This document shows positions 7,673 through 64,000 of a DNA stretch of 64,000 bases, one piece after another. The notes under the pieces were generated by a model that ran no database searches, was not told the origin of the DNA, and worked only from the letters and a program-made list of their open reading frames with translations. The position numbers and the translations under genes are program-made. Within the stretch, counting starts at the first letter, position 1. Each line of letters opens with the position of its first letter. This stretch comes from Candidatus Saccharimonadota bacterium (GTDB lineage: Bacteria; Patescibacteriota; Saccharimonadia; Saccharimonadales; Saccharimonadaceae), in assembly GCA_017536895.1 (NCBI GenBank), contig JAFWCN010000007.1, positions 1 through 64,000 of the forward strand. The letters are read 5' to 3'.

Positions 7673-10171
7673 GTGGAGAGATTTTTAGAATATTTTGTGC
7701 CGGAGAAATATCGGTTGGATTTGGCGATAGATAAGGTTGGTAAAACAATTGGAGGAGTGGTAGAAGTTCAAGGTAAAGCATTGACCGAGACGGTGAAGTT
7801 TCACGCGGTGAATATGTCGGTTGAGCGAGTATTAGTGAATGATGAGAAATGTGATTTCAAAGTGAAGGACGGGGTTTTGACACTTGATAAGATCTCGCTT
7901 GGTGAGGCTAAAGTACTGATTGAATATGAAGGGCAGTTAAATGAGAATATGCAGGGGGCGTATTTGTCGACGTATGAGTATGAAGGAAAAACGGAGACGA
8001 TAGTGGCGACACAGTTTGAAAGTCACTATGCTAGAGAGGCGTTTCCGTGTATTGATGAGCCGGCGGCAAAAGCAGTGTTTGAACTGACAATCACAGCTTC
8101 GGAAGAAGATATAGTGTTGTCTAATATGCCAGAAATGAAATTTAGTTCGGCGCCGCGTCGCTCGCGCCCGTCGCCACGGGGCGAGCGCGCTAATTCTCGC
8201 GCTGCCGCGCTCCGAAATGCGCCGAACCAAATTTCAGTTTCTGGCCGTAAAACCATTATATTTGAGCCGACGCCGAGGATGTCGACATATTTACTTGCGT
8301 GGGTGGTGGGGAAGTTGCATGGTAAGACGGTGACTAATCAACATGGGGTGGAGATTACGACTTATACGGCTTTGAATCAGGATGTTGATTCAGTGGATTT
8401 TGCGAACGAGGTGGCAGCACGGAGTTTGGAGTTTTATGATGATAATTTTGGGATAGATTATCCGTTGAAGAAATTAGATCAGGTGGCTTTGCCAGATTTT
8501 GATGCGGGAGCGATGGAAAACTGGGGGCTTGTGACTTATCGAGAATCGATGTTACTAGTATCAAAAGATGCGACTCTTGGGGCGCGAAAATCGGTAGCGT
8601 TAACGGTAGCGCATGAGCTATCACATCAGTGGTTTGGGGACCTTGTGACAATGAAGTGGTGGGATGATTTGTGGTTGAATGAGTCGTTTGCTTCGGTGAT
8701 GGAGTATTATGCGGTGGATGCGATTTATCCGGAGTTTAAAATATGGGAGAGTTTCTTTACGGGAGATTGTGCGGCTGCTTTGAACCGAGATGCGTATTCT
8801 GGGGTGCAATCGGTGCATCAGGAGGTTCATGATCCGGAAGAAATTACAACTTTGTTTGACGGGGCGATTGTGTATGCTAAAGGAGCGAGATTGATGTTGA
8901 TGTTGATTCGGTTGATGGGTTGGATGGAGTTTTGTAAAGGAATACATGAATACTTTGAAAAATACAAATATGAGAACACAGTGGGGGATGATTTGTGGAC
9001 TTGTCTTAAGCCCTATGCGACATTTGATCCAGGCGAGTTGATGCATGCGTTTATTGACCGGCCGGGCTATCCGATAGTGACAAATACGGGAGTGGATTTT
9101 GACAAATTTACTCAGAAAAGGTTTTTGCTTGATGGTGAGATGCCGGAATCGGATTGGCCTTTGCCGGAAATACGGGAGGACATGAGCGGGCACTATATAC
9201 TGAATTTGAGTGATGCGGAGTTTGAGGAGAGGTTGAAACGGTTTGATAAGTTAGGGCTAGAAGAAAAACTGAGGTTATTGATGGATAGAGATTTGATTAC
9301 GCGAGCAGGGGTAGCGAGCCCAGCGTCGTTAGTGCCACTAGTGATGAAATTTAAAGATGAATCTGCGGCGGCGGTGTGGAATAAACTAGCGTCGCTGGTT
9401 GGTAATTTGAAGGTGTATTTTGATGATGAGTCGGAGGAAGAGAAGAAATTAAAGAGATATGTTTACGAGTTGGTGGATGGAAAATTGAAGGAAGTGGGGA
9501 TGGAGACGAGGAAGGGTGATGATGAGAATATGATTCGTTTAAGGGCGAACCTGATGGCGCTAGATTATTTTGCGGAGGATGAGGAGAGATTTAAGGAGCT
9601 GGCGGCAAGATATACGGAAGATTACAGTAAGATGGATGCTGAGGTGAGAGATGCGATTATTGGTGCTAAGGTGTATCTAGAGCCGGAGTTTGTGGATGAA
9701 TGTTTGAAAAAGTATCAGGAAGTCAGTGATCCGGATGTGAAATTCGATTATCTCGCGGCGGCATGTCTGGTGCGAAACGAGAAAGAATTAGATAAGCTAA
9801 TGGCGCTTCTTGGAGAAAATGAGATAGTGAAGCCGCAGGACCAGTTGTATTTATTTGTGTATTTGTATCGTAATCCGAAGTGTAGGGCGAAGGCATTTGA
9901 ATGGCTAGTGAATAATTGGGAGACGGTGAAGAGGATAAACGGTGATAAGGCGCTAGATAGTTATCCAACGGTAATAGCGAAGCTTGCGAGAACGAAAGAA
10001 GAATATGATGCGTATGTTGATTTCTTTAAGCCGATGGAAAATGACTCATTAATGGCGCGAGCGGTGAAAATCGGGGTAAATGAGATTAAGGCGAGGTTGG
10101 AGTTAATTGAGAAGCACCAGCAGGAGGTGAAGGAAGTGTTAGAACAGAGGGTGAAGGTGGGAAAGAATTAG
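7673..10171 (+). CDS. M1 family aminopeptidase (PepN-like) with an in-frame palindromic insertion
   Basis: This zinc aminopeptidase removes N-terminal residues from peptides, so it is likely used for peptide scavenging. The 832-aa protein shows the exopeptidase motif GAMEN at residues 279-283, the zinc site HELSH at 314-318 and the third ligand E337 (HEXXH-X18-E). An N-terminal beta domain and a C-terminal helical domain complete the M1 architecture. Residues of about 153-191 hold an Arg/Ala/Pro-rich stretch encoded by a GC-rich palindromic repeat (separate entry), inserted between 'SNMPE' and 'RKTIIFEPTPRMSTYLL', which are contiguous or nearly so in relatives. The frame stays open. GTG at 7673 follows AAGGAG by 6 nt. 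The 3' end overlaps the convergent fic gene by 33 bp. Confidence 0.93.
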   Translation: MERFLEYFVPEKYRLDLAIDKVGKTIGGVVEVQGKALTETVKFHAVNMSVERVLVNDEKCDFKVKDGVLTLDKISLGEAKVLIEYEGQLNENMQGAYLSTYEYEGKTETIVATQFESHYAREAFPCIDEPAAKAVFELTITASEEDIVLSNMPEMKFSSAPRRSRPSPRGERANSRAAALRNAPNQISVSGRKTIIFEPTPRMSTYLLAWVVGKLHGKTVTNQHGVEITTYTALNQDVDSVDFANEVAARSLEFYDDNFGIDYPLKKLDQVALPDFDAGAMENWGLVTYRESMLLVSKDATLGARKSVALTVAHELSHQWFGDLVTMKWWDDLWLNESFASVMEYYAVDAIYPEFKIWESFFTGDCAAALNRDAYSGVQSVHQEVHDPEEITTLFDGAIVYAKGARLMLMLIRLMGWMEFCKGIHEYFEKYKYENTVGDDLWTCLKPYATFDPGELMHAFIDRPGYPIVTNTGVDFDKFTQKRFLLDGEMPESDWPLPEIREDMSGHYILNLSDAEFEERLKRFDKLGLEEKLRLLMDRDLITRAGVASPASLVPLVMKFKDESAAAVWNKLASLVGNLKVYFDDESEEEKKLKRYVYELVDGKLKEVGMETRKGDDENMIRLRANLMALDYFAEDEERFKELAARYTEDYSKMDAEVRDAIIGAKVYLEPEFVDECLKKYQEVSDPDVKFDYLAAACLVRNEKELDKLMALLGENEIVKPQDQLYLFVYLYRNPKCRAKAFEWLVNNWETVKRINGDKALDSYPTVIAKLARTKEEYDAYVDFFKPMENDSLMARAVKIGVNEIKARLELIEKHQQEVKEVLEQRVKVGKN
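8129..8244. repeat. Palindromic element A (type I), in frame inside the M1 aminopeptidase gene
   Basis: The arms at 8129-8153 and 8219-8244 are inverted copies matching at about 24 of 26 positions. The core (8154-8218) is GC-rich and forms a long hairpin with GCCCGT/ACGGGG-type pairing around a CGCC loop. After it comes a tail TAATTCTCG...CTCCGAAAT. The core is homologous to elements at 35281 and 53062, and the hairpin differs by paired substitutions. It encodes about 30 extra residues ending LRNAP, in the same frame as the copy in the RNA methylase, which ends LRNVP. Confidence 0.85.
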
Positions 10172-21779: not shown

Positions 21780-23585
21780 ATGTTTAGGAAGAAAAATCGA
21801 AGTAAGAAACGAACGCGCGCGATGCTATCGGCGTATTCGATTATTATGATTCTGATTATTTTGCTTGGCATTTTGTCACATGTTTTGCCGAAGGCGCAGT
21901 ATGTTGCAGCGCCGGTAGATGAAGCTGAGGCTTCAGAAGCAGTTGGTCCGGGAGAATGGGAAGGTGAAATGCCGGAAGGTGGACCAGCGGAGCTGAAGGG
22001 TGAAGTGCCACCAAAACCAGCTGAAGGTGAAGAAATTGTTTTGCCGGAAGGTGAATCGTTTGAGCCAGCTGTTGGTGATGAAGTGAACGGTGAGAATTTG
22101 CCGGAAAATCGTGAGGCTGATACTGCTGTTCTTACAGCTGGTGAAGAAGTTTCAACGGAGAATTTGACGGAAACTCCAAACAAGGAGGAGGTAGTTGAAG
22201 AGGAAGAGGTGTTTGAATCTTTGGAGGCTTGTGAAGAGGTTTACGGTGAAGAAGGTTGTGTGATTAAAGACGGTTCTGGTGTTGAAGGGGCTCAGCTTTA
22301 TCAAGTGTTGATGGCACCGATACTTGGATTTGAGGATGCAATTGATGTATGTATCTTCGTGATGGTACTCGGTGGATTCCTCGCTGTAATGGCGAAGACT
22401 AAAGCACTAGAAACTGGAATTAAGATACTCGTTAAGAAAATGCATGGCAAGGAATATTTGTTGATTGCAGTTTTGATGTTGATCTTTTCGGTCATGGGTA
22501 CCACTTATGGGTTCTTGGAAGAAAGCGTTGGATTCTATGTCTTAATTGCGGCAACGATGTTTGCGGCAGGACTCGACCCGTTGGTCGGTGTAGCAACTAT
22601 TCTTCTAGGCGCTGGAGCTGGTGTGCTTGGTTCGACGATTAATCCATTTGCGACGGGTGTAGCTGTTTCAGCGATGAAAGATGCTGGGATTGAGTTTAAT
22701 CAAGGTACTATAATCTTAATTGCGACTGTGCTGTGGCTCACAACACTTGCAATCTCGATGTTTTTCGTGATTCGTTACGCGAAGAAAGTGCAGCGTGATA
22801 AGGGTTCAACATTCTTGTCGTTGCGGGAGCAAGCGGCAGCAGAGAAGCGTTATTCGAAATTCCTTCAAGCTAAGGATGATACTTTGAAACTAACTGGTCG
22901 TCAGATTGCTTCTCTAGTTGTATTTGCATTGACATTTGCCGTGATGATTATCGGGTTTATTCCATGGGGTGACTTTGGAATTACTTTCTTTGATGTCTGG
23001 ACAGGATGGCTAACTGGTGCATCGCTTGGGAACTGGTGGTTCTATGAAGCGGCGCTTTGGTTCCTCCTTGCCTCAATCCTTATTGCGATTATTAACCGTG
23101 AAGGTGAGCATGGATTCATCGACACTTTTATTGATGGTGCGGATGATATGATTGGCGTGGTACTTGTGATTGCGGTAGCACGAGGTGCTTCAGTATTGAT
23201 GGCACAAACTGCGATGGATAATTTCATTGTAGTAAATGCAGCGGCTGGACTTGCGTCCTTGCCGGAGATGGCATTTGTGCCTCTAAACTATTTGTTACAC
23301 GTAGCCTTGTCAGTGCTAGTGCCATCATCTTCGGGTCTTGCAACTTTGTCGACACCGATTATTGCGCCGGTGGCAGCCAATCTTGGCTACAGTACCAATG
23401 TAGCGGCGATGACAATCGTAGCAGCAAATGGTTTGGTGAACCTCATTACGCCAACTTGTGGTGCAATCATGGCAGGTCTTGCGCTTGCAAAAGTCGATTA
23501 TGCAACTTGGTTTAAGTGGGGGATTAGAGTGGTAGCATGTATTGCGATAGTTAATATTATCGTATTATGCTTGTTCTCGCTTTAA
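21780..23585 (+). CDS. YfcC-family membrane carrier, probable arginine/ornithine exchanger, with an acidic insertion
   Basis: The 601-aa polytopic protein belongs to the YfcC/C4-dicarboxylate anaerobic carrier type. A conserved segment is 'GLDPLVGVATILLGAGAGVLG' followed by a STINPFATG motif (about residues 262-292), with some 11-12 hydrophobic helices. In ADI operons such carriers exchange arginine for ornithine, so the role is inferred from context. A stretch of about 130 residues between the first and second helix (about 40-168) is extremely rich in Glu, Pro, Gly and Ala, with repeated 'EGE/PEG/EVP' motifs. It is predicted to face outside, and relatives usually have a shorter loop. A weak AAAGGA site precedes the ATG. 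Confidence 0.85.
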   Translation: MFRKKNRSKKRTRAMLSAYSIIMILIILLGILSHVLPKAQYVAAPVDEAEASEAVGPGEWEGEMPEGGPAELKGEVPPKPAEGEEIVLPEGESFEPAVGDEVNGENLPENREADTAVLTAGEEVSTENLTETPNKEEVVEEEEVFESLEACEEVYGEEGCVIKDGSGVEGAQLYQVLMAPILGFEDAIDVCIFVMVLGGFLAVMAKTKALETGIKILVKKMHGKEYLLIAVLMLIFSVMGTTYGFLEESVGFYVLIAATMFAAGLDPLVGVATILLGAGAGVLGSTINPFATGVAVSAMKDAGIEFNQGTIILIATVLWLTTLAISMFFVIRYAKKVQRDKGSTFLSLREQAAAEKRYSKFLQAKDDTLKLTGRQIASLVVFALTFAVMIIGFIPWGDFGITFFDVWTGWLTGASLGNWWFYEAALWFLLASILIAIINREGEHGFIDTFIDGADDMIGVVLVIAVARGASVLMAQTAMDNFIVVNAAAGLASLPEMAFVPLNYLLHVALSVLVPSSSGLATLSTPIIAPVAANLGYSTNVAAMTIVAANGLVNLITPTCGAIMAGLALAKVDYATWFKWGIRVVACIAIVNIIVLCLFSL

Positions 23586-23592
23586 AACTAAA

Positions 23593-23741
23593 AGTAGTAT
23601 AATTCTCAACATTGAAACACGCGCCGTATAAAAATTACAACAGCTCAGTCGGGCTCGTCCTGGTATTTCAGTACCAGCTACTCGCCCGTGACTGTTGTAA
23701 TTTTTATCGGGCGGTTTCAAATCGTCTCGAATTATACTGCT
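23593..23741. repeat. Palindromic element E (type II) between the carrier gene and gpmI
   Basis: Long imperfect palindrome. Outer arms: AGTAGTATAATTC (23593-23605) with GAATTATACTGCT (23729-23741), and a second pair around GAAAC/GTTTC. Inner 16-bp perfect arms: ATAAAAATTACAACAG (23628-23643) with CTGTTGTAATTTTTAT (23692-23707). The core hairpin CGGGC-TCGTC-CTGGTA-TTTCAG-TACCAG-CTACTC-GCCCG is structurally the same as in element F at 62480, with paired base changes. The right flank (23700-23731) is nearly identical to the core of element H at 25360. Confidence 0.8.
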
Positions 23742-23767
23742 TCTAGTTTTTATGATATAATAAGCAT

Positions 23768-25357
23768 ATGGATAAATTATCGTTTGATGGGCCGGTAGTT
23801 TTGGCAGTCTTGGATGGGGTGGGGCTTGCACCTGATGCGGATGGAAATGCGGTATCTAAAGCACGCACGCCGTTTCTTGGTAATGCGGCAAAAAAATATC
23901 TACATGTAGCGCTTGATGCATCGGGTGAGGCAGTTGGTCTTGTTAATGGTCAGATGGGAAATTCTGAAGTTGGTCATAATACGATGGGGTGTGGTCAGGT
24001 GATTAAGCAGGGCATTGCACGGATAAATGAAGCTTTTGATACTGGTGAAGTGTTCGAATCGGTATCTTGGAAAGGGGCAGTATCTCGAATTGGTAGTGTG
24101 GGGACTTTACATTTTGCAGGGATTTTTTCGGATGGAGGAGTGCATAGTGATATTTCGCATTTGTTTAAGATGATTGGTCGGGCGTACGAGGAGGGGGTGA
24201 GAAAGATGCGAGTGCATGCGGTGTTTGATGGGCGAGACGTGCCACCGACTTCGGCGCTTGAATATATTAAACAATTCGAGGATTTTGCTTCGAAATTTGC
24301 TGATGCGGATATTAAAATAGCATCGGGTGGTGGAAGAATGGTATGCGTGGCTGACCGCTATGAGAACGATTGGAACGTAGTAAAAAGTGGATTTGATATG
24401 ATGAGGTGGGGAAAGGCGGATTATTATTTCCATTCGGCTGAGGAAGGTGTGTCGGCTTTACGACGAGAACATGCTGGTGTGCAAGATCAGAATTTGCCGG
24501 CATTTGTGATTGTAGACGATAATGAGAAGCCGGTGGGGACGATTGAGATTGGCGACGCATTGATTTATTTTGATTTTAGAGCGGATCGGGCGATAGAAAT
24601 AGCGCAGGCTTTTACCTACTTTGATTTTCCGTATTTCGAAAGAGGGAATTATTCACCGGACGATGTGTATTTTGTGGGGATGACGGAATATAATTCGGAT
24701 ACGCATGTGCCGGAACATAGGCTAGTGGAGCAAGTCGTGATTTCGGATACTTTGAATCAGTTCCTAAGCTCACACGAGGTGTCGCAATTCGCAGTGTCAG
24801 AAACGGTGAAATTCGGACATATCACTTATTATTTCAATGGTAATAGCTATGAGAAGGCGTCGGGTGAAGAGTTTTATCAAGTTGATTCTTATACGGAGCC
24901 GTTTGAAACGAGACCGTGGATGCGATGTGCGGAGATTACGGATGTTGCGATTTCGAATCTGGATAAGTATAAATTTGTGCGGTTGAATTATCCAGGTGGA
25001 GATATGGTGGGACATACGGCAGACATGAACGCAACGATTGTGGCGATGGAGGCGATCGATTTGTCGCTAGTGAGACTATATCAAAAGGTTCGAGAGCTAG
25101 GTGGGTGCTTGATTATCGTGGCGGACCATGGAAATGCGGAGGAGTTGTTGGATAATGAGGGGCGAGCTAAGACTGCGCATACGATAAATAAGGTACCCTG
25201 TATTATTTGTGATGATACGGTAAACCGTACGCGATATGAGTTGGCGCCGGTGGTTAATCCAGGGCTATCTAATATCGCTTCGACGATTTCAGTGTTGCTT
25301 GGTTTTGAGGATTATCCGAAGAGTTGGAATCAGCCATTGATTGAATCTAAAAACTAA
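23768..25357 (+). CDS. gpmI: 2,3-bisphosphoglycerate-independent phosphoglycerate mutase
   Basis: This glycolytic enzyme, dependent on two Mn2+ ions, converts 3-phosphoglycerate to 2-phosphoglycerate. The 529-aa product is the family length. It shows metal-site motifs 'VLDGVGLAP' (about residues 15-23), the catalytic serine loop 'GNSEVGHNTMG' (about 65-75) and 'VADHGNAEE' (about 454-462), in the alkaline-phosphatase-like fold. TATAAT (23756-23761) ends 6 nt before the ATG and no Shine-Dalgarno sequence is present, so the mRNA should be leaderless. The last codons form the left arm of palindromic element H. Confidence 0.95.
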   Translation: MDKLSFDGPVVLAVLDGVGLAPDADGNAVSKARTPFLGNAAKKYLHVALDASGEAVGLVNGQMGNSEVGHNTMGCGQVIKQGIARINEAFDTGEVFESVSWKGAVSRIGSVGTLHFAGIFSDGGVHSDISHLFKMIGRAYEEGVRKMRVHAVFDGRDVPPTSALEYIKQFEDFASKFADADIKIASGGGRMVCVADRYENDWNVVKSGFDMMRWGKADYYFHSAEEGVSALRREHAGVQDQNLPAFVIVDDNEKPVGTIEIGDALIYFDFRADRAIEIAQAFTYFDFPYFERGNYSPDDVYFVGMTEYNSDTHVPEHRLVEQVVISDTLNQFLSSHEVSQFAVSETVKFGHITYYFNGNSYEKASGEEFYQVDSYTEPFETRPWMRCAEITDVAISNLDKYKFVRLNYPGGDMVGHTADMNATIVAMEAIDLSLVRLYQKVRELGGCLIIVADHGNAEELLDNEGRAKTAHTINKVPCIICDDTVNRTRYELAPVVNPGLSNIASTISVLLGFEDYPKSWNQPLIESKN

Positions 25358-25405
25358 TTTTTATCGGGCAGTTTCAAATCGCTTCGAAGAATTAGTTTTT
25401 AGATT
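25344..25405. repeat. Palindromic element H at the convergent ends of gpmI and the next gene
   Basis: AATCTAAAAACTAATT (25344-25359) and AATTAGTTTTTAGATT (25390-25405) are a perfect 16-bp inverted repeat. The left arm contains the gpmI stop codon and the right arm contains the stop of the - strand gene. The 30-nt core (TTTATCGGGCAGTTTCAAATC...) matches the right flank of element E almost base for base. Confidence 0.75.
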
Positions 25406-34584: not shown

Positions 34585-35766
34585 ATGTATTTAGCGGTTT
34601 TGGGGCGACAAAGTGAGATATCGATTGCGGAATTAGAGGCGTTGTTTGATGATGTGAAGAAAAAGAATGATTATTTGGCGAGTTTTGAGAGTAAAGATGT
34701 CCCGAATATTGATAGATTGGGTGGAAGTTTGAAGTTGGCGGAAAAGTTAGATATGAAACCACTAGATTATTTGGCGAAATTACCAGAAGGGAAAATTACG
34801 ATTGGGGTGTCGGATTATTCTAAGAAAGCGTCACGAAAAACTGCATCAATGGAGGCTTTGAAATTGAAAAAAATCTTGGTGCGACATGGACGTTCGGTAA
34901 GGGTGGTTGAAAATAAGGATGCAGTTTTATCTACGGCGACATCGCTCCATAATGGTTTGTCGGGAAAAAACGAGCGAAAAGTGGAACTTATCAAAGTAGA
35001 CGATGATTGGTATAAGGTAATTGGTGTACAGGATATTGATGCTTATGCTAGACGTGATCAGGCGAGGCCGGCAAGAGATGCTAAAGTGGGGATGTTGCCA
35101 CCGAAATTGGCACAAATTTTAATTAATCTATGTGGCCCACTGAAACCTGGTTCTATTATACTAGATCCGTTTTGTGGAACTGGAGTGGTTCTCCAAGAGG
35201 CGCTCCTGATGGGCTACCGCGTCTATGGGACTGACCTCAATGAAAGAATGATAGAATATAGTAGCAAGAACCTTAAATGGTTAAGCGAAAAATACATATT
35301 TTCTGGGACACGGGTCGCTCCGGCCCGTCGTCACGGGCGGAGCGCCCTAATTCTCGGTCGTAACCTCCGAAATGTCCCAGAAAATAGTATTCTTTCGCTT
35401 AATCAAGCTGATGCTACCAATTTTCAATGGGAACAGCCCATAGACGCGGTGGCGTGTGAGGGGTATCTGGGGAAGCCGATGTCGAAAATTCCGACAGAAA
35501 TGGAACTAAAGAAACAAAAACAAGAATGTGGGGCGATTGCGATTGGATTCTTAAAGAATATAGCTGGCCAAATTAAGCCTGATATTCCAGTAGTGATAGC
35601 TGTACCGGCCTGGTTACGCGAAGATGGGGTATATTCTCGTTTGAATATCCTTGACGAAATTGATAAACTGGGGTATAATGTTAATAATAAATCGCGCGAG
35701 GGGCTTATTTATTCACGAGAAAAGCAAATCGTGGCGAGAGATATATTAATTTTAAGGAAAAAGTAA
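34585..35766 (+). CDS. TRM11-like RNA methylase with an in-frame palindromic insertion
   Basis: The 393-aa protein has an N-terminal region of about 150 residues (THUMP-like, starting 'MYLAVLGRQSEISIAELEAL') and a C-terminal Rossmann methyltransferase of the UPF0020 type. The SAM motif is 'ILDPFCGTGVVLQEALLMG' (about residues 192-210) and 'VYGTDLNERM' follows. Family members methylate guanosines in tRNA or rRNA; the exact target is not known. Residues of about 233-273 are encoded by palindromic element B and split motif-bearing sequence between 'NLKWLSEKY' and 'SLNQADATNF'. The ORF stays open to the stop, which abuts rpmA. A leaderless start is likely (TATAAT 6 nt before the ATG). Confidence 0.85.
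   Translation: MYLAVLGRQSEISIAELEALFDDVKKKNDYLASFESKDVPNIDRLGGSLKLAEKLDMKPLDYLAKLPEGKITIGVSDYSKKASRKTASMEALKLKKILVRHGRSVRVVENKDAVLSTATSLHNGLSGKNERKVELIKVDDDWYKVIGVQDIDAYARRDQARPARDAKVGMLPPKLAQILINLCGPLKPGSIILDPFCGTGVVLQEALLMGYRVYGTDLNERMIEYSSKNLKWLSEKYIFSGTRVAPARRHGRSALILGRNLRNVPENSILSLNQADATNFQWEQPIDAVACEGYLGKPMSKIPTEMELKKQKQECGAIAIGFLKNIAGQIKPDIPVVIAVPAWLREDGVYSRLNILDEIDKLGYNVNNKSREGLIYSREKQIVARDILILRKK
35281..35402. repeat. Palindromic element B (type I), in frame inside the RNA methylase gene
   Basis: The 30-nt arms (35281-35310 and 35373-35402) are inverted copies differing at about three positions. The core hairpin is GGGTCGCTCCGGCCCGT-CGTC-ACGGGCGGAGCGCCC (35312-35347), a stem of about 16 bp, then TAATTCTCGGTCGTAACCTCCGAAAT (35348-35373). 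It is homologous to elements A and C. It encodes about 40 residues without a stop and shares the LRN-x-P reading with element A. Confidence 0.9.
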
Positions 35767-48385: not shown

Positions 48386-48470
48386 ATAAAAAATCGGCTT
48401 TAAATGCCGTTTTCTTGGGGAATTGGTGGGGGCGAATTGGGCGGGCATTAACAATTTATAAAGAAGATAA
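48386..48470. repeat. Cassette repeat R0
   Basis: A - strand terminator (CGGC-ATTTAAA-GCCG then ATTTTTT; 48388-48409) lies beside a 45-bp segment (48425-48469, starting GGTGGGGGCGAATTGGGC) that recurs at 50279-50323 with four differences. Read on the + strand the segment is open in one frame (WGRIGRALTIYKED...), and two of the differences are third-position synonymous. The rest of the 193-bp gap (48350-48542) shows nothing else. Confidence 0.65.
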
Positions 48471-50110: not shown

Positions 50111-50325
50111 TAACCAAATTGTTTAGGGTATTAACAGACATTTTAACAGGGGTAGAAACTACATTTTTAGCAGGTTTTTGCTGTAAAAATACCCCAAAAT
50201 TACATACTATTGATACAGGGCACTAAACAGAAATTTACTACTAAAAAATCGGCGAAAATGCCGACTCATATATAATCTGGTGGGGGCGAATTGGGCAGGC
50301 ATTAACAATCTATAAGGAAGATATC
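50111..50325. repeat. Cassette repeat R1
   Basis: It shares with R2 (51042-51215) TGTTTAGGGTATTAACAGACA near its left end and TTTACTACTAAAAAATCGGCGAAAATGCCGA (50231-50261) near its right end, with a diverged middle. It shares with R0 the 45-bp GGTGGGGGCG segment (50279-50323). The - strand hairpin CGGC...GCCG plus ATTTTTT is again a terminator. It lies between the ART-like gene and the methyltransferase gene, and fills the gap between them. Confidence 0.7.
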
Positions 50326-51041: not shown

Positions 51042-51215
51042 TAACCTGATTGTTTAGGGTATTAACAGACAGATTTATAGGAGTAAAACGGCAGTTTTCG
51101 CCTCGTTTTTCGTGTAAAATCGGCATAAAATAACACTCTAGAACTTGTAAGGTACTTAACAGGAATTTACTACTAAAAAATCGGCGAAAATGCCGAATCA
51201 AATAAAATTTGGTGG
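51042..51215. repeat. Cassette repeat R2, ending at tRNA-Phe
   Basis: A diverged copy of R1 begins one base after the methyltransferase stop and runs into the CCA end of tRNA-Phe (on the - strand). Shared blocks: TGTTTAGGGTATTAACAGACA and TTTACTACTAAAAAATCGGCGAAAATGCCGA. The position next to a tRNA 3' end suggests an integration hotspot. Confidence 0.7.
51174..51196 (-). terminator. Terminator of tRNA-Phe
   Basis: On the - strand CGGC-ATTTTC-GCCG is followed by ATTTTTT, 14 nt after the tRNA. Confidence 0.75.
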
Positions 51216-51285
51216 CGCCGACTGGACTTGAACCAGTGACACAAGGCTCTTCAGGCCTCTGCTCTACCAACTGAGCTACAGCGCC
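51210..51285 (-). tRNA. tRNA-Phe (anticodon GAA)
   Basis: Acceptor GGCGCTG/CGGCGCC, D arm GCTC...GAGC, anticodon arm GAGGC-CTGAAGA-GCCTT (anticodon GAA), T arm ACTGG-TTCAAGT-CCAGT, encoded CCA. Confidence 0.95.
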
Positions 51286-51891: not shown

Positions 51892-53076
51892 ATGAATAGA
51901 GTGCCATTAGCGGAGAGGATGAGGCCGACGAAGCTATCTGAGGTGGTGGGACAGGACGAGATTATCGGCGAAGGGAAGATTTTGACAGAAATTGTGAAGA
52001 AGGGGGAGCCGGTGAATCTGATTTTTTGGGGGCCACCAGGGACCGGTAAGACGACATTAGCTAGGATATTGGCACGAGAATTTGAAGCGGATTTTGTGGA
52101 GATATCGGCGGTGACGGCAGGGAAAAAGAACGTCGAGGAAGTAGTAGAAAGAGCGAAACTGAATTGGAATTTGAAAACACGGACGATTTTGTTTGTAGAC
52201 GAAATTCATCGGTTCAATAAGGCACAGCAAGATGCGTTTTTGCCACATGTGGAATCGGGATTGATTACTCTGATTGGAGCGACAACAGAGAATCCTTCGT
52301 TTGAAGTGATTTCGCCACTACTCAGCCGTTCGCGAGTTGTGGTGGTGTCAGCACTATCGAAGGACGCGATTATTGAGGTGCTGAAGAGGGCAATTAAAGC
52401 AGAAAAAGCTACGAAAAGAGTATCTAAAAAGGCGATTGATTTACTAGCAGAATTATCAGGAGGAGATGCGAGAGCGGCATTAGGGGATCTTGAACTGGCT
52501 TTGTCGTTGGCAGATAAGGTGGATGAGAAAGTAGTAGAAGAGGCGGCAGGTCGGAAGATGCCAGGGTATGACAAAAAAGGCGACAATCATTATGATACGA
52601 TTTCGGCATTTATTAAGTCGATGCGTGGTTCGGATGTGGATGCAGCGCTTTATTATCTTGCACGGATGGTAGAAGCGGGTGAGGACCCGAAGTTTATTGC
52701 ACGTAGAATGGTGATTTTTGCTTCGGAAGATATTGGATTAGCAGGAAATGGAGCACTTAGTCTTGCGACGGCATGTTTTCAGGCAGTAGAAAGAGTGGGT
52801 ATGCCAGAATCGGGGCTGATGCTAGCTCATACTTGTGTAGCTTTGACTAAGTCTAAAAAATCACGACAGACGACGGATGCGTGGTATAAGGCACTTGAAG
52901 TAGCGAGAAAGACGCGGGGTGAGCCGGTGCCGATATGGCTTCGCAATGCGCCGACGAAATTGATGAAGGATTTAGGATATGGGAAGGGTCAAAAATGGGA
53001 GGCGGGGTTTCACCTCGATAAAAGCTACTTACCAGATAGTATTAAAGACGTTGGAATTTGGAGGGCAACTAAATAA
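51892..53076 (+). CDS. rarA: Replication-associated recombination protein A (RarA/MgsA)
   Basis: This AAA+ ATPase acts at stalled replication forks. The 394-aa protein starts 'RMRPTKLSEVVGQDEIIGEG' and has Walker A 'GPPGTGKTT' (about residues 46-54), Walker B 'FVDEIHRFNK', sensor 1 'GATTENPSFEV' and 'LLSRSRVV'. The C-terminal tetramerisation domain follows ('RRMVIFASEDIGLA'). TATAAT (51880-51885) ends 6 nt before the ATG, so it is probably leaderless. The last codons form the left arm of palindromic element C. Confidence 0.95.
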   Translation: MNRVPLAERMRPTKLSEVVGQDEIIGEGKILTEIVKKGEPVNLIFWGPPGTGKTTLARILAREFEADFVEISAVTAGKKNVEEVVERAKLNWNLKTRTILFVDEIHRFNKAQQDAFLPHVESGLITLIGATTENPSFEVISPLLSRSRVVVVSALSKDAIIEVLKRAIKAEKATKRVSKKAIDLLAELSGGDARAALGDLELALSLADKVDEKVVEEAAGRKMPGYDKKGDNHYDTISAFIKSMRGSDVDAALYYLARMVEAGEDPKFIARRMVIFASEDIGLAGNGALSLATACFQAVERVGMPESGLMLAHTCVALTKSKKSRQTTDAWYKALEVARKTRGEPVPIWLRNAPTKLMKDLGYGKGQKWEAGFHLDKSYLPDSIKDVGIWRATK

Positions 53077-53180
53077 AGCCGTTCGGGACACGGGTCGGCT
53101 CGGCCCGTCGTCACGGGCGAGCCGCCCTCTTTCTCGGTCGTAACCCCCGAACGGCCCCTCAGGCTTTATTTAGTTGTCCT
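53062..53180. repeat. Palindromic element C (type I) between convergent rarA and a thiol oxidoreductase gene
   Basis: The arms AGGGCAACTAAATAAAGCC (53062-53080, containing the rarA stop) and GGCTTTATTTAGTTGTCCT (53162-53180) are followed inwards by GCCGTTCGGG / CCCGAACGGC. The core hairpin GGGTCGGCTCGGCCCGT-CGTC-ACGGGCGAGCCGCCC is the same structure as in element B with paired substitutions (CGCTCC/GGAGCG against CGGCTC/GAGCCG). The tail TTCTCGGTCGTAACCCCCGAA is nearly identical to B. Confidence 0.9.
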
Positions 53181-61175: not shown

Positions 61176-62447
61176 ATGAAACATTCAGTCGAGGAAATCA
61201 CACTAAAAAACGGGGCGAAGGGGTTGTTTATTGATATTCCTGGAGCTTCGGTGATGTCGACGAGGATTCAGTTTCGGGCGGGGATGCTTTATGCGAAGAA
61301 TAAAAACGTGTATGAAATCCCGCATGTAGTAGAGCATCTGGCGTTTGGCGCGAATGCGAAATACCGCGATGAGCAAGCTTTTGAGGCGGAGTTTACTAAA
61401 AATGGGGCGTATCATAATGCTTGGACTTCGGATATTTCGGTGTGTTATGAGACGGAATGCGCGGATTTTGAGTGGGAACGGATTATGGAGCTTCAACAGG
61501 TATCGATTTGCGAGCCGAGATTTAACGAGGAGGAGTTGAAATCAGAAAAGGCTAACGTGAAGTCGGAGCTTACTGGCTATATGAATGATTATTATCGGTT
61601 GCTATGGCCGCGCGTACAACAGGCGGTAGGTGAGGACGTGCTAGATTTGTCGCAGAGGCGAGATACGATTGCGAACATTGATCTCAAGGATATTCGTGAA
61701 CACTATCGAAGGACACACACAGCGAAAAACATGCGGTTTATTATTGCGGGGCGTTTGAAGGGTCGGAAGCATAAACTGGTAAAAATGCTGGAGGGGTGGA
61801 ATTTGAAAGAGGGGAAGGAATTTGAGATTCCTTTGGCCGAGCTACATTCGTCGGAGGCGGTGTCGATTAGAAGGAAAGATGCGTCGAATATTACGTTTGG
61901 ATTTTCGCTCGTGACACCACGACACTTGGAGCATTCAGAAGTGTTTGCGATGAGCTGTTTGAATCATATTCTGAACGGGACGACTAATTCGAAAATCTTC
62001 GGGGCGGCTCGGAAACGAGGACTAGTGTATGGGATGGGCTCTTCGATTGCTTCAAATGCGCATAATTCGTATTGGGATTTTGACGGGGAAGTAAATATTG
62101 AAAATGCAGAGGAATTATTTGAGTTGATTCAGACGGAGCTAATGAAGACTTTGAATGGCGAGATACTCGATATGGATTTCCTTGCGGCAAAATCGTACGC
62201 GATGGGTAGATTCCAGATGGGAGCGCAAACGGTGGGGCAAATTGCAGATTATTATGCGGATGGATTCTTCTCCAATGGTACGATTGAGAAATATGATAAT
62301 ATGCCAAATTTGATCAAGTCGATTGATAAATTCAGAATGATTGAACTCGCTAGGGAGTTTGCAGGAAGTGGTATAAAAGGATTTGCTGCGGTGTCTTCAG
62401 TTGAGAAGGCGTTTATCTCTGAACTTGAGAATAGATTAAACTTCTAA
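61176..62447 (+). CDS. M16 family zinc metallopeptidase
   Basis: The 423-aa protein of the insulinase/processing-peptidase type has the inverted zinc motif HxxEH as HVVEH in 'YEIPHVVEHLAFGANAKY' (about residues 49-53). A downstream Glu supplies the third ligand in 'EEELKSEKANVKSEL'. A C-terminal inactive half follows, giving a single two-domain protomer that probably dimerises. It may degrade peptides for amino acid supply or process exported proteins. AGGAGG precedes the ATG. Its 3' end sequence is duplicated in the downstream repeat region. Confidence 0.9.
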   Translation: MKHSVEEITLKNGAKGLFIDIPGASVMSTRIQFRAGMLYAKNKNVYEIPHVVEHLAFGANAKYRDEQAFEAEFTKNGAYHNAWTSDISVCYETECADFEWERIMELQQVSICEPRFNEEELKSEKANVKSELTGYMNDYYRLLWPRVQQAVGEDVLDLSQRRDTIANIDLKDIREHYRRTHTAKNMRFIIAGRLKGRKHKLVKMLEGWNLKEGKEFEIPLAELHSSEAVSIRRKDASNITFGFSLVTPRHLEHSEVFAMSCLNHILNGTTNSKIFGAARKRGLVYGMGSSIASNAHNSYWDFDGEVNIENAEELFELIQTELMKTLNGEILDMDFLAAKSYAMGRFQMGAQTVGQIADYYADGFFSNGTIEKYDNMPNLIKSIDKFRMIELAREFAGSGIKGFAAVSSVEKAFISELENRLNF

Positions 62448-62637
62448 TAAGCAATTTATTCGCTCATAATGGACTAAAATTCTAATAACCAATTTATTCG
62501 CTTGAGCTCACGCCATTGATAATTTTTACAACGGATTAGGCAGATTCGTACTTGTATTGCAGTACAAGATACTCATCTGTAACCGTTGTAAAAATTATAT
62601 TGGGTTCGCTCAAATGCTCATAAATTGGTTATTAGAA
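62442..62637. repeat. Direct repeat plus palindromic element F (type II)
   Basis: The end of the M16 gene (TTCTAATAAGCAATTTATTCGCTCA, 62442-62466) is repeated directly at 62480-62504 and again in inverted form at about 62608-62637. Inside are perfect 16-bp arms ATAATTTTTACAACGG (62519-62534) and CCGTTGTAAAAATTAT (62583-62598) around the hairpin CAGAT-TCGTA-CTTGTA-TTGCAG-TACAAG-ATACTC-ATCTG, the same design as element E. The remainder of the 309-bp gap is the promoter of the next gene. Confidence 0.82.
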
Positions 62638-62684
62638 ATTTAATCTGATTATTAAAAAACCAGAAAATAGTAATCTTACGATAC

Positions 62685-62756: not shown

Positions 62757-62960
62757 ATGAAAGACAAATTTATAGGTATTGCTAAAGTTGGAGAAAAAGG
62801 ACAGATAGTTATTCCAAAAGAAGCAAGAGAAATGTTTGATATTAAACCGGGTGATTCTATTATCGTTCTTTGTGATAAAGAAAAAGGGATTGCTTTATTA
62901 AAAGCAGATGCAATTGAAGATTTATCTGATAAAGTATTTCCAAAAGGAGATAATAAATAA
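62757..62960 (+). CDS. AbrB/SpoVT-type transcriptional regulator
   Basis: The 67-aa protein has the swapped-hairpin AbrB fold: 'GIAKVGEKGQIVIPKEAREM', then 'FDIKPGDSIIVLCDKEKGIA'. It probably controls its own operon through the dyad upstream. AAGGAG precedes the ATG. The stop overlaps the first base of the ABC ATPase gene. Codon choice is strongly A/T-biased compared with genes upstream of 62450. Confidence 0.9.
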   Translation: MKDKFIGIAKVGEKGQIVIPKEAREMFDIKPGDSIIVLCDKEKGIALLKADAIEDLSDKVFPKGDNK

Positions 62961-63682
62961 TGATTGCAATTAAAACAAAGAAGTTAACAAAAAAATATAA
63001 AGATAAAGTTGCTGTAAATAAAATTGATTTAACTATTAAACAGGGTGAATTATTTGCACTTTTAGGAGTAAATGGTGCTGGAAAAACAACTATAATTAAA
63101 ATGCTATCTGGTCTAATTCTTCCGACTTCTGGTGAGATCATAATAGAAAAAATGAATATGAAAAAAGAAGTTTTTAAAATAAAAGAAATCTTAAATGTAT
63201 CACCACAAGAAACTGCTATTGCACCAAATCTAACAGTAAAAGAAAATCTAGAATTTATGGCTGGAGTTTATCAAATAGAAGAAAAAGATAATAAGATTAG
63301 TGAGCTAATTAAACAGTTTAAACTTGAGGAGGTTTTAAATAAGAAAGCAAAAACCTTATCAGGTGGATGGCAAAGAAGAGTATCTATTGCGATAAGTCTT
63401 ATAAATGATCCAAAAATATTGTTTTTGGACGAACCTACATTAGGTTTAGATGTTATTGCTAGAAAAGAACTATGGAAAGTTATTAATTCATTAAAAGGTA
63501 TAATAACTATTATTTTAACAACTCATTATATGGAAGAAGCAGAAAGTTTGTCAGATAGAATTGGTATTATTTCAAACGGTAATCTTGTTGAAGTTGGAAC
63601 CTCTAAAGAACTTATTAAAAAGACTAAAACTAAAAGTTTTGAAGATGCTTTCGTATCTATTGCCACAGGAGGTGAATTATAA
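62960..63682 (+). CDS. ABC transporter ATP-binding protein
   Basis: The 240-aa ATPase has Walker A 'GVNGAGKTT' (about residues 35-43), the signature 'LSGGWQRRVSIA' (about 133-144), Walker B 'ILFLDEPTLGLD' and the H-loop 'LTTHYMEEAE'. The form is that of drug or lipid exporters of the ABC-2 type. It overlaps the following permease start by 1 nt. AT-rich codon usage matches the AbrB gene and the permease. Confidence 0.94.
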   Translation: MIAIKTKKLTKKYKDKVAVNKIDLTIKQGELFALLGVNGAGKTTIIKMLSGLILPTSGEIIIEKMNMKKEVFKIKEILNVSPQETAIAPNLTVKENLEFMAGVYQIEEKDNKISELIKQFKLEEVLNKKAKTLSGGWQRRVSIAISLINDPKILFLDEPTLGLDVIARKELWKVINSLKGIITIILTTHYMEEAESLSDRIGIISNGNLVEVGTSKELIKKTKTKSFEDAFVSIATGGEL

Positions 63683-64000
63683 TGAGAATGTTAAATTTTG
63701 CTAGAAGAAATTTTAAGGAATTAATTAGAGATCCTTTAAGTTTGGTATTTGAAATTGTATTACCAATATTTTTATTATTTATCTTTCAACAATTTAATAT
63801 TCCAGCAGAAAACTATAAATTAGAAAATTTTACACCTTCCATTATATTATTTGGATTTTCATTTATTACATTATTTACAGCTACATTAATTGCAAAGGAT
63901 AGAACTTCTTCATTTTTAATTAGACTTGGAACATCACCAATGAAATCCAGTGATTATATATTGGGATATATATTATCATTGTTACCAATAGTATTAATTC
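63682..64000 (+). CDS. ABC-2 type transporter permease (partial, runs off the window)
   Basis: The first 106 residues are visible: a short amphipathic N-terminus ('MRMLNFARRNFKELIRDPLS'), a first helix ('LVFEIVLPIFLLFIFQ', about 21-36), a second ('IILFGFSFITLFTATLI', about 53-70) and the start of a third. This is the typical ABC-2 permease opening. AGGAGGTG precedes the ATG. The partner ATPase lies just upstream. Confidence 0.9.
   Translation, partial: MRMLNFARRNFKELIRDPLSLVFEIVLPIFLLFIFQQFNIPAENYKLENFTPSIILFGFSFITLFTATLIAKDRTSSFLIRLGTSPMKSSDYILGYILSLLPIVLI

Follow-up and report, generated by a model that had tools for sequence, protein, structure and literature searches.

Family-specific cores and locus-specific inverted arms in small palindromic elements of Saccharibacteria

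The 3' end of an M16 peptidase gene raises the question of how a small element could come to be framed by copies of the gene that it adjoins. The gene lies in a window of 64,000 nucleotides, the whole stretch of DNA analysed here, which is contig C2 of an 836 kb genome in 17 contigs. A preliminary description of the window had noted that this gene end occurs three times, twice direct and once inverted around an element that we call F, and all three copies are indeed present (62433-62459, 62472-62497 and 62620-62646):

61176-62447, M16 peptidase gene, its 3' end inside a 27-nt arm at 62433-62459
62433-62471, + strand, native (first) copy of the gene end, running into a few initial bases of an F2 core; 12 relatives conserve the C-terminus that it encodes
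62472-62497, + strand, left arm of F, a second and direct copy of the gene end
62498-62619, strand unassigned, F2-family core of F (resemblance to the core of 23566-23768; fold)
62620-62646, - strand, right arm of F, an inverted copy of the M16 gene end

The inverted copy is 92-93% complementary to both direct copies, and a BLAST comparison of element F with its own reverse gives E = 2e-30. Among related species, the inverted tail is significant in the three that have element sequence at this site, namely the source genome, its sister species G064, and G038, which keeps only a remnant of the core. In each of these three species the tail matches that species' own gene end, and it is absent from all ten relatives (10/10) that have no element sequence at this site. 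Because the tail encodes a conserved C-terminus in all species, sequence comparison identifies the left arm as the native one and the right arm as derived. The DNA directly 3' of F (62757-64000) is AT-rich, carries an AbrB-like regulator and an ABC transporter, and does not stand beside the M16 gene in most relatives; it is likely an acquired module.

Related elements lie elsewhere in the window:

8128-8246, + strand, F1 element in frame within an M1 aminopeptidase gene; identical in G064
23566-23768, strand unassigned, F2 element (C) lying between gpmI and the gene for a DcuC-type carrier
25344-25405, + strand, F2 element at the gpmI 3' end with an internal deletion that spares the arms and removes most of the core
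35278-35405, + strand, F1 element (D) in frame within a methyltransferase gene; core inverted in G064
53066-53176, + strand, F1 element (G) at the rarA/mgsA 3' end; left arm holds the stop and last codons

Identities were assigned for the M16 peptidase, M1 aminopeptidase, methyltransferase, MgsA/RarA and iPGM/gpmI genes. The earlier placement of the gpmI end within the arms of one element holds at 25344-25405, whose arms contain the last gpmI codons and the stop; that of the rarA end holds at 53066-53176, where the Pfam domain is MgsA_C; and arms of local coding sequence are found at 8128-8246 and 35278-35405, although the letters of the preliminary description do not map one by one onto these elements. 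We considered whether the short element at 25344 might be a 5'-truncated retrocopy, but its junction falls at a shared TAATT and a plain deletion is simpler. The window also holds direct repeats of 80-180 bp, 76-82% alike, at 48387-48469, 50111-50323 and 51042-51221, between tRNA-Lys/Val and tRNA-Phe and flanking genes, which may mark the borders of a further mobile unit.

With the core at 35300 as query, the genome gave 27 matches that represent about 23 F1 elements; each has long arms, and these vary between copies. F1 elements span about 120 nt and F2 elements about 160-200 nt, and F3 and further families exist besides. The elements have no match among Rfam models of known structured RNA families. 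Of the F1 copies in this genome, 19/22 lie inside open frames that continue through the flanking gene, and the hosts, named from recognisable motifs rather than searches, include a tRNA synthetase, a GTPase, a UvrB-like gene and other conserved genes. Some F1 cores (L023, L017 versus their G064 counterparts, L025, L026) form a subvariant in which an extra piece of about 25 nt, of the GACCGCTCGCCGAAGGCGTAGCGTAGCGTCG type, replaces a short hairpin.

The relation between core and arms is clearest across 115 F1 copies from many species. The median score of cognate arms is 18.6 versus 6.5 for mismatched arms, and 92% of the copies exceed the 99th percentile of that mismatched control. Among copies with cores at least 98% identical, the left flanks resemble each other no more than those of unrelated copies do (6.4 versus 6.0), and the alignment displays blocks of identical cores carrying unrelated but self-complementary arms. 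As far as sequences can tell, the core is a property of the family and the arms are a property of the locus, just as the preliminary description had proposed in calling the arms locus-specific inverted duplications.

The arms nonetheless have a defined extent. Pairing in F1 mostly runs at 0.8-0.97 from positions 9 to 27 and reaches background by about 34, with the stem ending sharply about 28 nt from the core. A weak signature with a spacing of about 10 bp (T at -8/-9, A at -18/-19, a purine at -28) is mirrored on the right. Thus, F1 cores do not bring their arms with them, yet arm length is measured. A fixed reach of about 28 nt and a 10-bp base preference are not expected from free template switching, and hint at a dedicated enzyme or ruler.

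The host is a member of the Saccharibacteria of the ruminant-gut kind. A 17-base piece of the F1 core matches many Candidatus Saccharibacteria records, mostly ruminant-gut, and occurs in 46 of 393 genomes of the order, 45 of them congeners and one from another genus. This 17-mer also matches a true phage contig (L288), but we rejected that contig as an F1 carrier and attribute the match to chance, since both the F1 core and the arm are absent around it. We found no report of such palindromic repeats in Saccharibacteria in the open-licence literature. All genomes compared are species representatives, mostly metagenome assemblies, and palindromes can mislead assemblers. In-frame continuity and recurrence across many independent assemblies argue against such an artefact. 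The closest relative compared, G064, shares about 85% DNA identity with the source genome, a level that often leaves polarity, and whether gain or loss came first, uncertain.

If the second arm is made upon insertion, an empty site should hold one arm, and the preliminary description had suggested looking for exactly this in sibling strains. Our comparison used sister species. The clearest case besides F is pheT, where G064 has an F1 element and the source genome is empty, reading ...GFQINNDGNGLTVTVPEWR... and aligning gap-free to solved PheT structures/chains. The G064 protein reads ...GFQI-TS...core...QIVIEIL-VPEWR.... Its left arm, AGGATTTCAGATAA, is the native 14 nt (encoding GFQI) and is identical in the source genome, whereas the right arm is an inverted copy of the left and stands in place of 28 native nt. 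No direct target-site duplication is evident at pheT, and other sites are too diverged. At the rarA end, the source genome and G064 share the element, and relatives without it have the gene end once. Less certain empty sites with one arm are found in the source genome (C7 12289) and in G064 (c1a 16755, c3b 45132). The first of these may be a deletion scar, given that related F1 arms share GGCAATC, and some one-armed 'empty' sites are deletion remnants (c11).

Other empty sites depart from this pattern. Three sites are core-less palindromes with both arms, namely the G064 counterpart of L014, which reads AACTGTAATTACAGTT, the source-genome counterpart of sib1 27707, and L156 in ileS; c6 30336 is perhaps a further core-less palindrome. 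These could be deletion scars or older palindromes. Neither arm is recognisable at about five empty sites (c1a 2985, c3a 42620, c2 57607, source-genome C9 9538 and the source/G064 ileS pair). An automatic 16-nt arm test, applied to 54 sites, served just to choose sites for reading by eye, its null being high (mean 0.56); pheT and F were singled out once many sites had been inspected. On these alignments, the pattern of one native arm is well shown at two or three sites but is not universal in the sample. At F and pheT, the best-resolved sites, the empty allele has a single arm.

The ileS gene provides a broader view of how such sites change. Its inserts (L126-L175) are in-frame hairpins between KFK and LAWTTTPW, within one short loop of IleRS that accommodates several unrelated element families in different species and is empty in others. 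Of the 51 species read, 18 have the short form and the other 33 carry inserts, which fall into at least four kinds. With family labels drawn roughly from simple motifs, a minimum of 24 state changes is required on the ileS tree. Gain and loss at this site are frequent, and the arms covary between species. We did not use one pair (L162/L130) to prove polarity, since G144 branches from within the occupied species. The site offers about 50 species for following gain, loss and replacement.

Elements also continue to change after they arrive. Relative to the source genome, the sister species carries an inverted core between the same arms at site D (35278-35405 versus L100) and at L022/L102, and at D both arms carry identical base changes between the two species. 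A third candidate inversion (source-genome C17 59123 versus G064 c1b 40268) was rejected, as it is the same element in loci on opposite strands. Template switching between inverted repeats is known to homogenise arms and invert spacers (PMC8604942), and to extend stems and yield inverted loops (PMC8794818). The inverted cores, the arms that change in step and the palindromic scars all fit this known process. Six elements common to the source genome and G064 (8128-8246, 53066-53176, L009, L013, L018 and L023 are included among shared elements) are 98.8% identical over 682 nt, and identity 300-600 bp away is about 81-82%. Given the rapid turnover of elements, these copies were probably exchanged recently between the species. 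The identity gradient does not prove homing, since picking tracts that contain an element produces the same shape. A separate rearrangement lies at 52847-52917 of the joined C17 stretch (50001-149000; L118), where part of a tRNA-Met-like gene is repeated in inverted orientation after the gene, along with a second piece of it; the G064 counterpart is a simple gene.

We lean towards an explanation in which the outer arms are built from the target by fold-back copying that starts at the core stem, during insertion or shortly afterwards. The elements would be small non-coding mobile sequences, each with a short-stemmed core that forms a conserved hairpin or junction, and the outer stem would be built anew at each site. 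A strand that has crossed one flank and the core would fold back on the core stem, copy about 16 nt of the flank in reverse (in F1, out to about 28 nt from the core), and then rejoin the original template. The product would be flank, core and inverted flank, at times overwriting the other flank. The same copying could later homogenise arms and invert the core, and could accompany core losses that leave palindromic scars. Fold-back copying as the cause, and its timing, are the parts that we infer. This scheme would account for inversions, scars and arms that change in concert, for a native arm paired with its inverted copy, and for the overwritten flank at pheT. The preliminary description had likewise proposed that insertion proceeds by hairpin- or template-switch-like reverse copying of the flank. 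We regard that proposal as supported in part: the derived arms at F and pheT, the core inversions and the concerted arms speak for it, and the empty sites with both arms or neither speak against it. Fold-back copying explains neither how the core arrives at a new gene nor the fixed reach, which together with the 10-bp preference would instead suggest an enzyme with a ruler.

An unlikely alternative overall is a dedicated transposition machinery for the core that, as the mirror image of a direct target-site duplication, would leave an inverted target duplication of fixed length. It would suit the sharp arm length, the spaced signature and the recurrent insertion of several families at one spot in ileS. 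We know of no enzyme that makes a fixed-length inverted target duplication, and an autonomous copy was not seen. Of two families searched, the Y1 transposase domain and the RVT_1 reverse transcriptase, neither is present in the source genome, although RVT_1 is found in 69 of 118 congeners. We therefore rejected Y1/RAYT mobilisation and reverse transcription as a retroelement. A broader reading is that the mobile DNA is the core only, renewing its terminal inverted repeats at each insertion by fixed-length reverse copying of the target (an inverted target-site duplication), through either measured fold-back or an enzyme. We hold this reading tentatively and consider it somewhat less likely than not.

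It is rather improbable that elements enter the loop of a pre-existing palindrome or hairpin and that both arms are older than the element. Some insertion sequences do insert in REPs, and group IIC introns do so at terminators. The three core-less palindromes would fit such an origin, as would a site with different cores between the same arms (source-genome C17 46076 / G064 c1b). However, the empty sites at F and pheT have a single arm, long natural palindromes are not expected at the in-frame positions of most F1 copies, the native ileS loop is often too short for arms, and the palindromic sites can be explained as scars after core loss. That the arms are instead part of the element and diverge faster than the core under a pairing constraint, as in the P1 stem of an RNA family, is very doubtful: the weak arm consensus and the covariation at ileS would be expected, but nearly identical cores lack arm similarity, and the match of arms to the native gene end at F and to coding sequence at pheT refutes it there.

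Like the elements described here, bacterial MITEs (Correia/NEMIS, RUP, ERIC) are small, non-autonomous and hairpin-forming, but carry their own terminal repeats and usually have direct target duplications, whereas the repeats here are locus-specific. Template-switch mutations (PMC8604942, PMC8794818) share arm homogenisation, stem extension, spacer inversion and reverse-complement copies of neighbouring DNA, much as we observe in the native arm with inverted copy at F and pheT (mixed elsewhere) and the spacer inversions at D and L022/L102; they involve only local sequence, in contrast to the mobile family-specific core and fixed reach seen here. Nematomorpha mitochondria have perfect inverted repeats within genes, which come and go between species and whose arms evolve in concert (PMC6649704), but no family-specific mobile core is reported there. 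The closest known relatives in anatomy and habitat appear to be the Rickettsia palindromic elements, palindromes of about 100-150 bp, many of which lie in frame within conserved protein genes and are translated (PMC2229807). Compared by description rather than sequence, F1 elements fall within that size range, also when it is drawn more closely at about 105-146 bp, and share the in-frame habit. The Rickettsia terminal repeats are reported to be element-borne and family-specific, with an identity that fades with time (PMC2229807, PMC6649704), whereas those described here are unrelated between identical cores and yet still paired. Known small palindromic elements carry their own terminal repeats, and here the ends seem to derive from the target. 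If true, inverted target duplication would join the known outcomes of transposition, and mobile elements would be linked to template switching, in host-dependent bacteria with reduced genomes whose conserved proteins (tRNA synthetases, GTPases, UvrB) these elements rewrite.
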